From NCBI RefSeq assembly GCF_039962255.1, contig NZ_JAMPKY010000005.1:62001-126000 (forward strand): DNA of 64,000 nt, read 5' to 3'. Under the pieces are notes generated by a model that was not told the DNA's origin, did not search any database, and was given only the letters and a program-made list of their open reading frames with translations. How positions within the stretch are numbered: position 1 is the first letter of the stretch; each line of letters starts with the position of its first letter. This stretch comes from Leptolyngbya subtilissima AS-A7 (GTDB taxonomy: Bacteria; Cyanobacteriota; Cyanobacteriia; Phormidesmidales; Phormidesmidaceae). Below, one piece after another: positions 847 to 7,482 of this stretch. The position numbers were made by a program, and so were the translations under genes.

Positions 847-924
847 GCTGAAACTTTGTAGCAACTTTTCCGGACGAAGTCTCGTCTTAGGTGAAAAGGT
901 GAATGGTAGATGCACCCTGAAAAG

Positions 925-956
925 TCCCACTGGCTACGGCCAGGGGATTTTTTTTT
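925..956 (+). terminator. Rho-independent terminator of the PPC/TPR gene
   Basis: TCCC-A-CTGGC, loop TACG, GCCAGGGGA, then nine T. The stem is nine base pairs with one bulged A and a stable tetraloop. It lies about 80 bp after the stop of the PPC/TPR gene and faces the separate cpcG terminator. Confidence 0.85.
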
Positions 957-3521: not shown

Positions 3522-4190
3522 CTAACCCTGCTTTTTGCGGGCTAGCCCAGCGGCGCTTAGGCCCACTAGTACTAGGGCCGCGGTAGAGGCTGGTTCTGGC
3601 ACGGTGGTGTTCGGTTCTTCGGGAGTGAGGTCGCCTTTGGCAACGAAGAACGATGCGTGAGATAAGTCTTTTTGGTCAAAGGTGGCCCAGGTACCGCTGT
3701 TGAAGCTGGTGCTGCTGTCGAAGTAGTAAGCGGTGTAGGCGTTACCGGCCTTGAGACTAATTACAAAGGGACTGGTTACGGTCTCGGCTAAGCTCCAGGT
3801 GCCGCTGCCTTTGCCGGTTTGTACCCAGCTAAAGCCATAGTCATTGGGGCCAGAGGAGTTACGGCCACCTTCGTATTTACCGTCGAACACCCAGTCGTCT
3901 CCTAGGGTGCTGTCGAGGAAGGCAGTGAGTTCGCCGCTGATGCCGCTGGTGACATCGTTGCCCGACACTGGATTTAAACACTGGCTGTAGCTGAGTGAAG
4001 ACCCACCGGCCAGAGGGTTGCTGGTTACTGAGCCGCTGGCACAGGTGAGGGGAGCCGCCGGTTGGCTGGTTTGGCCACCGCTGCTACCGCCCTTGCTGTT
4101 GCCGCCCTTGGCAGCAAATGCCTCAGGGGCTACCGACCCTAGGAGGCCGGTCAGCACTAAAGCTGAACTTAGAATCGTGAATGCTTTCAT
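3522..4190 (-). CDS. PEP-CTERM sorting-signal protein
   Basis: The 222-residue protein has an N-terminal signal peptide (MKAFTILSSALVLTGLLGSV, cleavage after AFA), then a low-complexity G/S/K stretch, a beta-rich central domain, and a C-terminal VPEPASTAALVLVGLSAAGL followed by ARKKQG. The last part is a classic PEP-CTERM signal: PEP motif, hydrophobic helix, basic tail. Such proteins are handled by an exosortase (EpsH/CrtA family), which is not in this window. The central region (TAFLDSTLGDDWVFDGKYEG, FVISLKAGNAYTAYYF) resembles other cyanobacterial PEP-CTERM proteins of unknown function. The start at 4190 follows an AAGGAG about 12 bases upstream; an in-frame TTG three codons earlier is an alternative. 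Confidence 0.85.
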   Translation of the reverse strand: MKAFTILSSALVLTGLLGSVAPEAFAAKGGNSKGGSSGGQTSQPAAPLTCASGSVTSNPLAGGSSLSYSQCLNPVSGNDVTSGISGELTAFLDSTLGDDWVFDGKYEGGRNSSGPNDYGFSWVQTGKGSGTWSLAETVTSPFVISLKAGNAYTAYYFDSSTSFNSGTWATFDQKDLSHASFFVAKGDLTPEEPNTTVPEPASTAALVLVGLSAAGLARKKQG

Positions 4191-4305
4191 GCAGGGCAAA
4201 TTCTCCTTAGGTAGGCACTGTAGGCAGTAGCCATAGACGAAAGGGGGCGTTTGCGTCTGATGGTCTCTCCGAGACAGATATAGGTTTTGGGTGTACTTCT
4301 TTACT

Positions 4306-4331
4306 AAAACACTCTCCGTAATGGAGTGTGT
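4306..4331 (-). terminator. Candidate terminator after the nurA-like gene
   Basis: On the minus strand ACACTC, loop CATTACGGA, GAGTGT, then TTTTAG. The stem is only about six base pairs and the T-run four, so it is a modest candidate. It lies between the nuclease stop and the PEP-CTERM gene. Confidence 0.45.
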
Positions 4332-4381
4332 AGGTCAAATTACGGAGCTTTGGAGCAGTTCACCAAGACTTTATGGTGAGT

Positions 4382-5569
4382 CTAACGGCGGCGCTGTTTG
4401 CTGACCATTTTGCGGGAGAGCCGCAGGTTGATCGCTTCGCGGTCGGCCCAGTCTTGCAGCACGCGCAGAAAAATATGTTTGTCTTGGCCTTGAAGGACGG
4501 CGGTTTGGTCGGCGGTTTCAATACTGTAGGGGTAGCCGCCGCCAATAATTACCTCGCCCCTCACCCAGTTGAGGTATTGAGTAATGTGGCCGCTTTCCCA
4601 CATCCACCGGGGCATTTCGAGGCGCACGGGATGACCGTCGCGGGTAGTTTTGAGATAGGTAAAGGCGATTTGATCGCCGTAGTCGTTGTACTGATCCAAA
4701 ACGCCGCCGCGATCGCACTGAAACACAGCGCTGCGATCGCCCCACTCCATCAGCCGCGCCAGCAGTTGGGCGTCGTGAATGCCCTCGGTGGCCTCTAGCC
4801 CATAGACGTGGTGCAGCATTGTGGTCAGGTCGCGGGCGTAGGAGGTATCCACATAGCCCACCAGGGGGACGCGGCGGCGATCGCTGGCCTCTAATAGCGA
4901 AAGAATAGACTGCACGTAGGCAGTTTGGCTCTCCTGGTCAAAGGCTTCGGCAAAGGTGACCACCAGAGCCCCGTCAAAAAATACCAGCGTGCGCTCAGGG
5001 TCTTGGCAAGCGTTGATATATTCCACCAGCCGCGCCACCTCCATTTGAAAGCGGCGAATGTTGACGCGGCGCTCTACGGGTTGGGCAGGGTTTGGCCCCA
5101 GCTCGGAGGGGGTCATGAGGTCGACCCGCACGTCCTTTTTATAGGGGCGGGTGGCACTGTGGGGGTTCTCAAACCAGCCAATTTGCAGCAGCGCAATTGG
5201 GATAGAAATATCTTTGCCAGGGGAAATTTGAGAACCATCCACCGCGAAGGTGGTGATGTCTTCTAGGACGGTCTGCACCCACTGGGCGCTCTGTTCACGG
5301 TTCGTCCAGCGATCGCTCACCGGGCCAGATTCTGTAAAGAAGAACGGCAAGATGCCTTTTTCGGCGGCGATCGCCTCTAAGGGACGGGCTCCCACTGGCC
5401 CGGTTAGGTTGTCTAACTGAGCGAGCTGCCTGGCGTGTGGTAGGGCGGCAAACTCAATCCACGCTCGGTTGTAGGCGTGCATCAGCTCAAACTTAGCCCG
5501 ACTGAAGGCGCTAAAGGCATCTCGCTTCTGGTCGAGCAGGGCTTTAATTTGGCTGGAACTCACTGGCAT
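4382..5569 (-). CDS. nurA: NurA-domain nuclease
   Basis: The 395-residue protein has the NurA domain layout: an N-terminal helical region (residues 1-90), FAVDGSQISPGKDISIPIALLQIGW around 110-140 with the metal-binding aspartate in VDGSQ, LVFFDGALVVTFAE near 215-230, LVGYVDTSYARDL near 260, and a C-terminal GYPYSIETADQTAVL segment. NurA enzymes are 5'-3' DNA nucleases that act with the HerA translocase in end resection in archaea. Cyanobacterial members are widespread but their role is less clear. No herA neighbour is visible. The start is the ATG at 5569, without a strong Shine-Dalgarno sequence. The tail KMVSKQRRR is basic. Confidence 0.85.
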   Translation of the reverse strand: MPVSSSQIKALLDQKRDAFSAFSRAKFELMHAYNRAWIEFAALPHARQLAQLDNLTGPVGARPLEAIAAEKGILPFFFTESGPVSDRWTNREQSAQWVQTVLEDITTFAVDGSQISPGKDISIPIALLQIGWFENPHSATRPYKKDVRVDLMTPSELGPNPAQPVERRVNIRRFQMEVARLVEYINACQDPERTLVFFDGALVVTFAEAFDQESQTAYVQSILSLLEASDRRRVPLVGYVDTSYARDLTTMLHHVYGLEATEGIHDAQLLARLMEWGDRSAVFQCDRGGVLDQYNDYGDQIAFTYLKTTRDGHPVRLEMPRWMWESGHITQYLNWVRGEVIIGGGYPYSIETADQTAVLQGQDKHIFLRVLQDWADREAINLRLSRKMVSKQRRR

Positions 5570-6101: not shown

Positions 6102-7310
6102 CTAGTGGTGATGATGACCGTGGTCGTGGCTGTGACCGTGATCGTGTCCGGGTAGATGGTGGTCGTGGGTATGACCGTGGTGACTATGCACCGCCGCCGC
6201 CTGAGATGCCGCTAGGGAAGGATTAATCGCTAGGGCGTCTTCTTCCAGCAGATCGGCGATGTGCTTGTCGGCCCAGGTGGCTGCCATAGCTAGAAAGTCG
6301 GGGCGATCGTTGACGCAGGGCATTTGCACATAGGTAACGTCGGGGCGCTTGCGGCGCAGCCCTTCGATAATGTGCTCGACATCCAGCAGGGTTTCGTGGT
6401 TTTCGGTAGCGAAGCCGATGGGCATAAACACCAGGGCGGTGGCTCCCAGATCAATCAAGTTACGGGCCGCCAGGTCAGCGTTGGGCTGGGTCCATTTGAT
6501 CAGCGGGGTATCGTGGTTGAGCCAGCCTACTGAGATCAATGGATACTTGTAGATCAGGCGATCGCGCACTTTGTCGTAGAGCTTTTGGCTCTCATCAATG
6601 CCGGAGGTAAAGCCCTTGGCCTCGTGGGGGCAGCCGTGGTTCATCAACACGATGCCGGTTTGAGAGGGCAGGTGGGCCACGGCCAGGTGGTCTTTGATTT
6701 TTTCTTCGACCATGGTGGCCAACAGATCGATGTAGTCGGGCGCGTCAAAGAAAGAAGGAATGTAGCGCGTGCCCTGGACCCAGTGCTCGGTGCCATCGGA
6801 TAGTTTGACTAGAGCCTGGTTGACCTGCTCGATCGCAATGCCGCTGGTGAAGATGGAATCAACCACCAACAGGGGATAGATCAGCAGCTTGTCGTAGCCC
6901 TCTGCTTTGACCTGCTCTAGCACTTGGTCGGGCAGGAAGGGCTTGCAGAAGTTGAAGGCTTTGAACACCTTGATGCGATCGCCCCAGCGCTCTTTCAAAT
7001 TGGCCTCGATGCCGGCCCGCTGGGCCTCAAAAATAGCGTTGTGGGGAGAGATAAAGTTGCCGTGCTGGTGGCTCCACTCGTGGAGGTCGAAGGCGGCCAG
7101 CACCTTGGCCAGGGGAGGGTAGACCCAGGTTGGTACGGGGGCAAATTTTGCTGTTAGGAGGTTGAGCGCCTGCTCGTTGTAGTTGGCAAAGTCTTCGTAG
7201 CTTTCGACTTCGCCGTAGCCCATCAGCAGCACCGCTACCCTGCTATCGCCAGAGGATGTTGGGTGGGAGTGAGATGCGGATGTTTGAATAACATCAGGGG
7301 TTGCAACCAT
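6102..7310 (-). CDS. Ferrochelatase-family protein with histidine-rich tail
   Basis: The 402-residue protein has a two-lobed class II chelatase fold: AVLLMGYGEVESYEDFANYN (about 28-47), DKLLIYPLLVVDSIFTSGIAIEQ, GIVLMNHGCPHEAKGFTSGIDESQ, ALVFMPIGFATENHETLLDVEH. Ferrochelatases insert metal into tetrapyrroles; the second-lobe HG and the E-N-H-E-T segment sit where the family's catalytic residues lie. It lacks the hydrophobic chlorophyll-binding-like C-terminus of typical cyanobacterial HemH. Instead it ends in a tail in which 16 of the last 28 residues are histidine, and the N-terminus also has SHSH. Histidine tails occur in cobalt- and nickel-handling chelatases such as some CbiX proteins, so a metal other than iron is possible. 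The gene is monocistronic. Confidence 0.75.
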   Translation of the reverse strand: MVATPDVIQTSASHSHPTSSGDSRVAVLLMGYGEVESYEDFANYNEQALNLLTAKFAPVPTWVYPPLAKVLAAFDLHEWSHQHGNFISPHNAIFEAQRAGIEANLKERWGDRIKVFKAFNFCKPFLPDQVLEQVKAEGYDKLLIYPLLVVDSIFTSGIAIEQVNQALVKLSDGTEHWVQGTRYIPSFFDAPDYIDLLATMVEEKIKDHLAVAHLPSQTGIVLMNHGCPHEAKGFTSGIDESQKLYDKVRDRLIYKYPLISVGWLNHDTPLIKWTQPNADLAARNLIDLGATALVFMPIGFATENHETLLDVEHIIEGLRRKRPDVTYVQMPCVNDRPDFLAMAATWADKHIADLLEEDALAINPSLAASQAAAVHSHHGHTHDHHLPGHDHGHSHDHGHHHH

Positions 7311-7354
7311 AGTGCTTGCTCTTCGGAGGTGTATCTCGTACAGGCTAACATCCT

Positions 7355-7477
7355 CCCCTGGGGGATAACATTAACAAAACCAGCAGGTTACATAGACCTG
7401 AAAGGGTCTTTGCACCTGGGTCAGCCTGTGTGGGTATAGTACTGAAGCAGGTCGCAGACCTACTATCCCCCCAGGGG
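7355..7477. repeat. Interrupted inverted repeat in the CheA1-chelatase gap
   Basis: CCCCTGGGGGATA (7355-7367) and TATCCCCCCAGGGG (7464-7477) are reverse complements except for one extra C. Each arm is itself partly palindromic. The interior contains a further small hairpin (AGACCTGAAAGGGTCT). The whole lies between the first CheA stop and the chelatase start. Confidence 0.6.
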
Positions 7478-7482
7478 TATAT

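Follow-up and report, generated by a model that had tools for sequence, protein, structure and literature searches.

The gene at positions 6102–7310 (minus strand) of the window, the 64,000-nucleotide stretch of DNA that was analysed, encodes a conserved, His-tailed paralogue of ferrochelatase that is not the haem enzyme of its genome. An operator-like palindrome upstream of this gene is shared with nickel-type uptake genes of related genomes, and, as judged from sequence, the gene probably belongs to a nickel regulon. The sequence patterns also suggest that the paralogue handles nickel and not iron. We therefore read the protein as a second, non-housekeeping class II chelatase that is dedicated to nickel and lies within a palindrome-controlled nickel regulon, at a probability of about 0.55. 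Its closest named relatives, at 98% identity, come from a Nodosilinea strain, a Nodosilinea MAG and a Tildeniella MAG.

The assignment of the 402-aa protein was based on its open reading frame with an ATG start, on profile matches and on fold comparison. The protein matches PF00762 (Ferrochelatase) with 129.4 bits over residues 25–349 (cut-off 27), and its match to TIGR00109, the hemH equivalog, reaches 75.8 bits, under the cut-off of 124.6. The Pfam domains of CbiX (21.4 bits over 44 residues; cut-off 22) and CbiK (14.4 bits; cut-off 26.2) also stayed under their thresholds, as did the UreE family (12.3 bits; cut-off 221), which covered residues 367–401 only. Inspection of the 402-aa sequence by eye revealed no MXCXXC motif of the CbiX-L type, and the His tail is present. 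An AlphaFold (AF2) model, computed from a 33-row alignment that included seven canonical HemH sequences, had a mean pLDDT of 78.7, with the tail below 50. The best fold match of the model was human ferrochelatase (1hrk; Z 31.0, rmsd 3.2, 321 residues aligned), and SirB (Z 19.6) and CbiK (Z 18.2) scored well under it.

Active-site residues were mapped by a profile alignment to human ferrochelatase and by an alignment of 29 members with 31 HemH sequences, with the human residue numbers derived from PDB titles and chain offsets. His225 (codon at 6636–6638, minus strand) aligns with the catalytic His263 of the human enzyme, and Glu306 (codon at 6393–6395, minus strand) aligns with Glu343. Both residues are kept in 29/29 members and 31/31 HemH, and also in two tail-less divergent paralogues (alignment A2). 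The residues at human R164, Y165 and H341, which are kept in 31/31 HemH, are N120, F121 and N304 in all 29 members. Human Ile342 aligns with H305, and human Met76 aligns with Y32, a position that is presumably Tyr in B. subtilis. As H225 and E306 are kept and the Arg, Tyr and second His are replaced, the metal site appears to have been retained and the porphyrin pocket remodelled.

An earlier note on this sequence had described a His-rich tail of 28 residues and the lack of a membrane-like C-terminal segment, and both descriptions were borne out. The tail (residues 375–402; 6105–6188, minus strand) contains 16 His in 28 residues, the whole of residues 1–374 containing 15 (binomial P about 9e-16), and no CAB-like segment is present in the 402-aa protein. 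In the genome's canonical HemH (L001), a CAB-like AEVWNGRLAM... segment is present, and the protein ends in AEVWNGRLAMVGFLALLLEL followed by a short rest. Among nearest relatives, from which both of our tail sets were drawn, 10–17 His were found within the last 28 residues in 29/29 panel orthologues, and at least 8 in the tail at 67/67 of those loci of the named set (80 loci) whose ORF was closed by our own criterion. Thirty orthologues had been fetched for the panel count; L021 was left out by the search pattern, and its tail is also His-rich. Canonical HemH has 1–2 His within the last 28 residues (31/31). In family f7, which is more distant, four members carry only 7–9 His in the tail, and both tail length and residue order differ among relatives.

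The genome contains a second, typical hemH, a CAB-tailed gene at G000:C6:269180-270133 (403 bits), and the window gene is thus not its only ferrochelatase; a sole ferrochelatase was the outcome that the earlier note had named as refuting its proposal, and that refutation fails. A search of 292 genomes of the phylum gave matches at E 0.001 or better in 150, canonical HemH included, and a near full-length orthologue with at least 68% identity was found in at least 76/292. For closer comparison we used a panel of 80 genomes of our own choosing, 45 with the gene (counting G066, whose orthologue is in pieces, and G091, which has a divergent homologue only) and 35 without. Canonical HemH was present in 80/80 panel genomes at 375–419 bits. 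The paralogue scored 122–146 bits, with 91 for the G066 piece and 99–103 for the divergent copies. Its absence is scattered, since families f6, f7, f11, f13 and f15 each include genomes with and without it. In G147, G183 and G268, the paralogue survives only as fragments, with stops in two of these genomes, and the canonical HemH is intact, indicating that the paralogue is dispensable for haem. In the same three genomes psaA/psaB are absent or broken, and they are intact in the genus mate G143; by size and state the three resemble diatom spheroid bodies, and they are presumably such genomes.

The divergent homologue, with about 44–48% identity (46% for G091 and 48% for G167 in the search of 292 genomes), occurs beside the orthologue in G167 (L095:7942–9081, minus strand) and alone in G091 (L096:8271–9383, plus strand). 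Neither copy has a His tail or a recognisable palindrome. The two copies adjoin a homologous gene pair, of which the G167 member matches the ZIP transporter family (35.3 bits; cut-off 35.1), and the tail-less divergent paralogue is perhaps a zinc counterpart.

To describe the promoter, exact dyads were counted in 112 upstream regions with no prior. TCCCC-N5-GGGGA was found in 53/112 regions, compared with no more than two for any dyad when every region was shuffled once. The full palindrome reads ATCCCC-N5-GGGGAT and is followed by GTTAnnCT. In the window it appears as ATCCTCCCCTGGGGGAT at 7350–7366 (no strand assigned), with one mismatch, and this is the sole window match at one mismatch or fewer. 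The hexamer TAGCCT (7342–7347, minus strand), located 2 nt past the palindrome and conserved as GTTAnnCT, is probably the −10 element. A weaker second dyad, ATACCCCTGGGGGGAT (minus strand, 7464–7479), lies directly upstream of the chelatase-like gene, separated from the main palindrome by about 100 nt, and overlaps or lies beyond the end of a cheA-like ORF. The Rfam scan showed no riboswitch at the chelatase-like gene of the window; elsewhere in the window, at 904–954 (plus strand), it gave a match to NsiR1 (nitrogen stress-induced RNA 1) of 48 bits.

A 17-bp position weight matrix (PWM) was built from 37 distinct chelatase sites and applied, with a threshold of 11, to 350 nt upstream of each gene. 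The threshold was reached by 26/34 panel and 64/75 named chelatase promoters, counts that are not independent of the matrix because it was trained on chelatase sites; 8/34 panel promoters had no palindrome. It was also reached upstream of DUF3120 (PF11318) in 22/30 cases and of the CbiM family in 15/30, although DUF3120 and NikMN had first been found via the palindrome and were then counted. No site was detected at the promoters of canonical hemH (0/30, and 0/30 after relocation), of CsoR/InrS (0/30, and 0/28 after relocation) or of CbiX (0/8). The fixed offsets used for the upstream regions misplace a few truncated loci (L339, L362). Shuffled sequences reach a score of 11 in about 0.1–0.4%.

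Exact palindromes were collected from 60 genomes. Besides the chelatase genes, they were located upstream of DUF3120 in eleven genomes (the site of G000 has a mismatch), upstream of transporters of the CbiM type (G008, G027) and, on two different contigs of G111, upstream of a NikL-type gene and of a NikK homologue with 52% identity to that of G070. One exact site each was found before cbiX in G197 and before cbiC in G157, and the other exact sites, inside ORFs or before unconnected genes, were taken as chance. The exact site of G008 is situated between a ferritin-domain gene (L305:2982–3458, minus strand) and nikMN (3697–4620, plus strand), and iron storage may be linked to the palindrome too. 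In the genome of the window, the palindrome with at most one mismatch is present only at the chelatase gene and DUF3120, which are two of 50 loose matches; these 50, allowing up to three mismatches, compare with 55 for a reversed control and represent no excess.

The CbiM family falls into three types, NikMN, NikKLM and cobalt, the nickel assignment being made by homology. The NikMN type (L314–L337, 24 loci) starts with HIPDG or HVPDG and mostly has a PDGLE domain, which we take to be NikN, fused or adjacent; the palindrome was found in 15/24 of these loci and in none of the other 9. The NikKLM set (18 of 20 fetched stretches), gathered later as a check, lay outside discovery and training and was independent except for G111, already met at other contigs. 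Here the palindrome was found in 12/18 at 0–97 nt before the first gene (nikK-like or nikL-like), and a 13th site, at L415, was added by reading (13/18; 5/18 without a site), compared with a mean shuffled expectation of 0.7 across the 20 stretches. These counts raised our confidence in the nickel-chelatase reading from 0.5 to 0.55 and slightly lowered that in three rivals. The cobalt type (L338, L339, L341–L343, L412 and L421, with L340 left unclassed) had the palindrome in 0/7 loci and a cobalamin riboswitch in 6/7, and this riboswitch was detected in 0/32 of the nickel-type loci scanned (14 NikMN, 18 NikKLM).

Members of each type were also scored against solved structures. Two NikMN-type members scored 114.5 and 120.5 bits against 4m58/4m5b and 48.9 and 52.5 bits against the cobalt CbiM 5x3x; one NikKLM-type member scored 47.2 bits to 4m58 and 26.0 to 5x3x, and one cobalt-type member scored 56.3 and 235.6, respectively. 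The entry 4m58, titled CbiM in the PDB, is presumably the nickel-binding NikM2. The NCBIfam model named 'cobalt transporter CbiM' (cut-off 205) was exceeded by NikKLM-type M subunits (318, 261.9 and 247.1), and the NikMN type stayed under it. Between G062 and G070 the nikK-like genes share 48% identity, and they matched no library family; the NikL family matches were below the cut-off. NikN and NikK/L have been described as markers of nickel and CbiN as a marker of cobalt (PMC2667541), and NikKLMQO of Synechocystis was reported to transport nickel (PMC5904137). The presence of the palindrome in nickel-type and not in cobalt-type loci, together with the structure matches and the subunit markers, thus points to nickel as the metal. 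The nik operon of the window's own genome, which is of the NikKLM type, showed no palindrome in the 450 nt before its first gene (best score 3.1), and a match scoring 13.5 at 725 nt upstream lies inside an ORF, so the nickel link rests on related genomes.

These promoter data bear on the possibility that the paralogue is an iron chelatase isozyme for special conditions, such as nickel stress, with the tail shielding the active site from Ni(II). Its nearest folds are indeed haem and coproporphyrin ferrochelatases, the catalytic His and Glu are retained, and Tyr32 stands at the human Met76 position, as we assume for the B. subtilis enzyme. However, the R/Y pair and the second His of HemH are replaced in 29/29 members, the TIGR00109 score remains at 75.8 against 124.6, the palindrome is shared with nickel uptake genes and not with canonical hemH, and the paralogue is broken in genomes where HemH survives. 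We consider an iron isozyme unlikely, and the palindrome common to the nickel-type uptake genes of relatives lends independent support to the proposal in the earlier note that the chelatase may serve another metal than iron, with cobalt disfavoured as that metal.

DUF3120, the other frequent carrier of the palindrome, is a membrane protein present in 58/60 genomes; its copies are broken in G183 and G268, and none was found in G147 and G085. Two further DUF3120 palindromes (G116, G157) would bring the count to 24/30. The relocation pattern located only 7/30 DUF3120 loci, 5/7 with the palindrome, and the count of 22/30 was retained. When the two recovered sites are included, the palindrome is present at DUF3120 in 23/25 genomes with the chelatase and in 1/5 without the orthologue; the P values calculated for such associations take no account of relatedness. 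G185 has the palindrome at nikM and DUF3120, and the chelatase is absent. Among the DUF3120 loci (L281, L292, L295–L301, L304, L307, L344–L373), some lie by psbU- and nadB-like genes, as recognised by eye.

The regulator was sought among known families. The palindrome resembles CsoR-type operators. A CsoR/RcnR (InrS) regulator was only provisionally rejected, as G039, a 220-contig assembly, has a nikM site scoring 19.1 and yet no PF02583 match, and the CsoR genes themselves are without the palindrome (0/30). A MerR-type regulator was also rejected because the dyad immediately precedes a −10-like box at the chelatase gene and directly follows such a box at DUF3120 and nikM, and no conserved −35 was seen. 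The opposite placement might reflect opposite control, in which one regulator represses uptake and activates the chelatase. Nickel repression through the palindrome, on the other hand, might mean that the chelatase is made at nickel scarcity, a poor fit to a sink. Among the gene clusters listed, no transcription factor was recognised near nikM and DUF3120. NikR and Nur were stated in 2014 to be absent from cyanobacteria (PMC4284471).

The commonest other neighbour of the chelatase gene encodes a protein of about 180 aa with FSAG and a conserved His/Asp (11/21 neighbourhoods), which is on the strand opposite to the chelatase in all eight of the examples inspected. In the named set, it was found in the available flank of 28/79 loci, on the opposite strand every time. 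Its predicted fold is a small alpha/beta-hydrolase (pLDDT 92.7), and the fold matches to TesA and LipA are weak (TM about 0.4–0.6) and neither names a substrate. The hydrolase was found in 44/44 panel genomes with the orthologue, counting G066, whose orthologue is in pieces, and some of these matches are partial, that of the window's own genome spanning query residues 59–151. An intact copy was found in 0/35 panel genomes without the orthologue, with broken pieces in G183 and G268, and the hydrolase was not found in G091, which has the divergent homologue only. In the own genome it lies on another contig, beside an acetolactate-synthase-like gene (named by eye), indicating that the co-occurrence outlasts physical separation. 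No palindrome scoring 11 was found upstream of hydrolase copies distant from the chelatase. In G170 the hydrolase gene and a HemW-like radical SAM gene, the latter named by eye, are divergently arranged (L103:5831–7075).

In the mechanism that we propose, ATCCCC-N5-GGGGAT would be the operator of a small cyanobacterial nickel regulon. The His-rich tail would collect or buffer Ni(II) and pass it to the active site, where nickel would be inserted into, or removed from, a tetrapyrrole, and the partner hydrolase probably cleaves an ester or thioester bond, either in this substrate or in one linked to it. Some observations speak against the nickel reading: no role in nickel metabolism is known for the nearly universal DUF3120, the chelatase occurs in G167 and G197 without a CbiM-family match, and in G185 and G056 nickel-type genes carry the palindrome in the absence of the chelatase. 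In a more specific and doubtful version, the nickel chelatase and the hydrolase would make a tunichlorin-like nickel-chlorin from chlorophyll breakdown, and the palindrome would be the missing control site of nickel uptake. Nickel chlorins (tunichlorins) have been obtained from a tunicate hosting a cyanobacterium, and the portion of that source available to us names no biosynthetic genes (PMC8074062). That such compounds exist in an animal with this kind of symbiont renders a chlorin substrate conceivable, but no more than that.

The pairing with the hydrolase also bears on readings in which the protein has another task. Its tail recalls the His-rich tails that occur in UreE, HypB and SlyD, and together with the palindrome shared with nickel uptake this would suit a non-catalytic nickel chaperone or store on a ferrochelatase fold that feeds hydrogenase or urease. 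This is rather improbable, since the catalytic His/Glu are kept in 29/29 orthologues and in the two tail-less divergent paralogues, the gene is paired with the hydrolase, and no hydrogenase or urease gene was recognised by eye beside the exact sites examined. The hydrolase could alternatively be a dephytylase that works in chlorophyll turnover together with a (de)chelatase for zinc or magnesium, which would agree with the degradation of the paralogue alongside photosystem I genes in three genomes and with the tail-less paralogue of G167 and G091, which in G167 adjoins the gene matching the ZIP family; given the absence of the gene from G014 and G174 despite intact psaA/psaB, and the nickel-type palindrome, we assign this only a slender chance.

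A cobalt chelatase for cobalamin, standing in for CbiX, is very improbable in spite of the His-rich tail of CbiX-L (PMC5816740) and the exact sites that precede a single cbiX and a single cbiC. The CbiX family is present in 80/80 panel genomes and its distribution does not follow that of the paralogue, on which ground a cobalamin role was rejected. The cobalt-type CbiM loci have the cobalamin riboswitch (6/7) and not the palindrome (0/7), and MXCXXC is lacking. Finally, of two spheroid-body genomes described, RgSB is reported to retain an intact B12 pathway (PMC5638926), whereas G183, which we take as such a genome, has a broken paralogue.

For the preferred reading of a nickel-dedicated chelatase, the palindrome provides a concrete bait for its regulator. 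It also follows that 'ferrochelatase' annotations in at least 76/292 sampled genomes of the phylum may belong to non-haem enzymes. The link by the palindrome between the chelatase gene and nickel uptake seems to be new, and so does the co-occurrence of the paralogue with the hydrolase. Among the entries listed by our literature searches, we found no study of the function of the His-tailed subset and nothing on point about a published palindrome at nickel-uptake genes.

The His-rich C-termini of cyanobacterial ferrochelatases without a CAB domain have been noted before, as unstudied until then (PMC8529089, JBC 2021). Those proteins almost certainly belong to the same family as the window protein, and the part of that paper available to us reports neither the palindrome nor the partner hydrolase nor a co-existence with canonical HemH in a single genome. 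Canonical CAB-domain HemH resembles the paralogue in its fold and in its catalytic His and Glu, but the two share only 21–25% identity, and the CAB domain, the R/Y pair and the second His belong to HemH alone. HemH is also universal in the panel and has a promoter without the palindrome, whereas the paralogue is not universal. CbiX-L, CbiK, SirB and CfbA belong to the same fold superfamily, and CbiX-L is likewise His-tailed. The paralogue differs from CbiX and CbiK in staying under their Pfam cut-offs, in lacking MXCXXC and in a Z to ferrochelatase far above that to SirB or CbiK. The NikMNQO and NikKLMQO nickel ECF transporters have the palindrome in common with the paralogue, and they are transporters, not chelatases.
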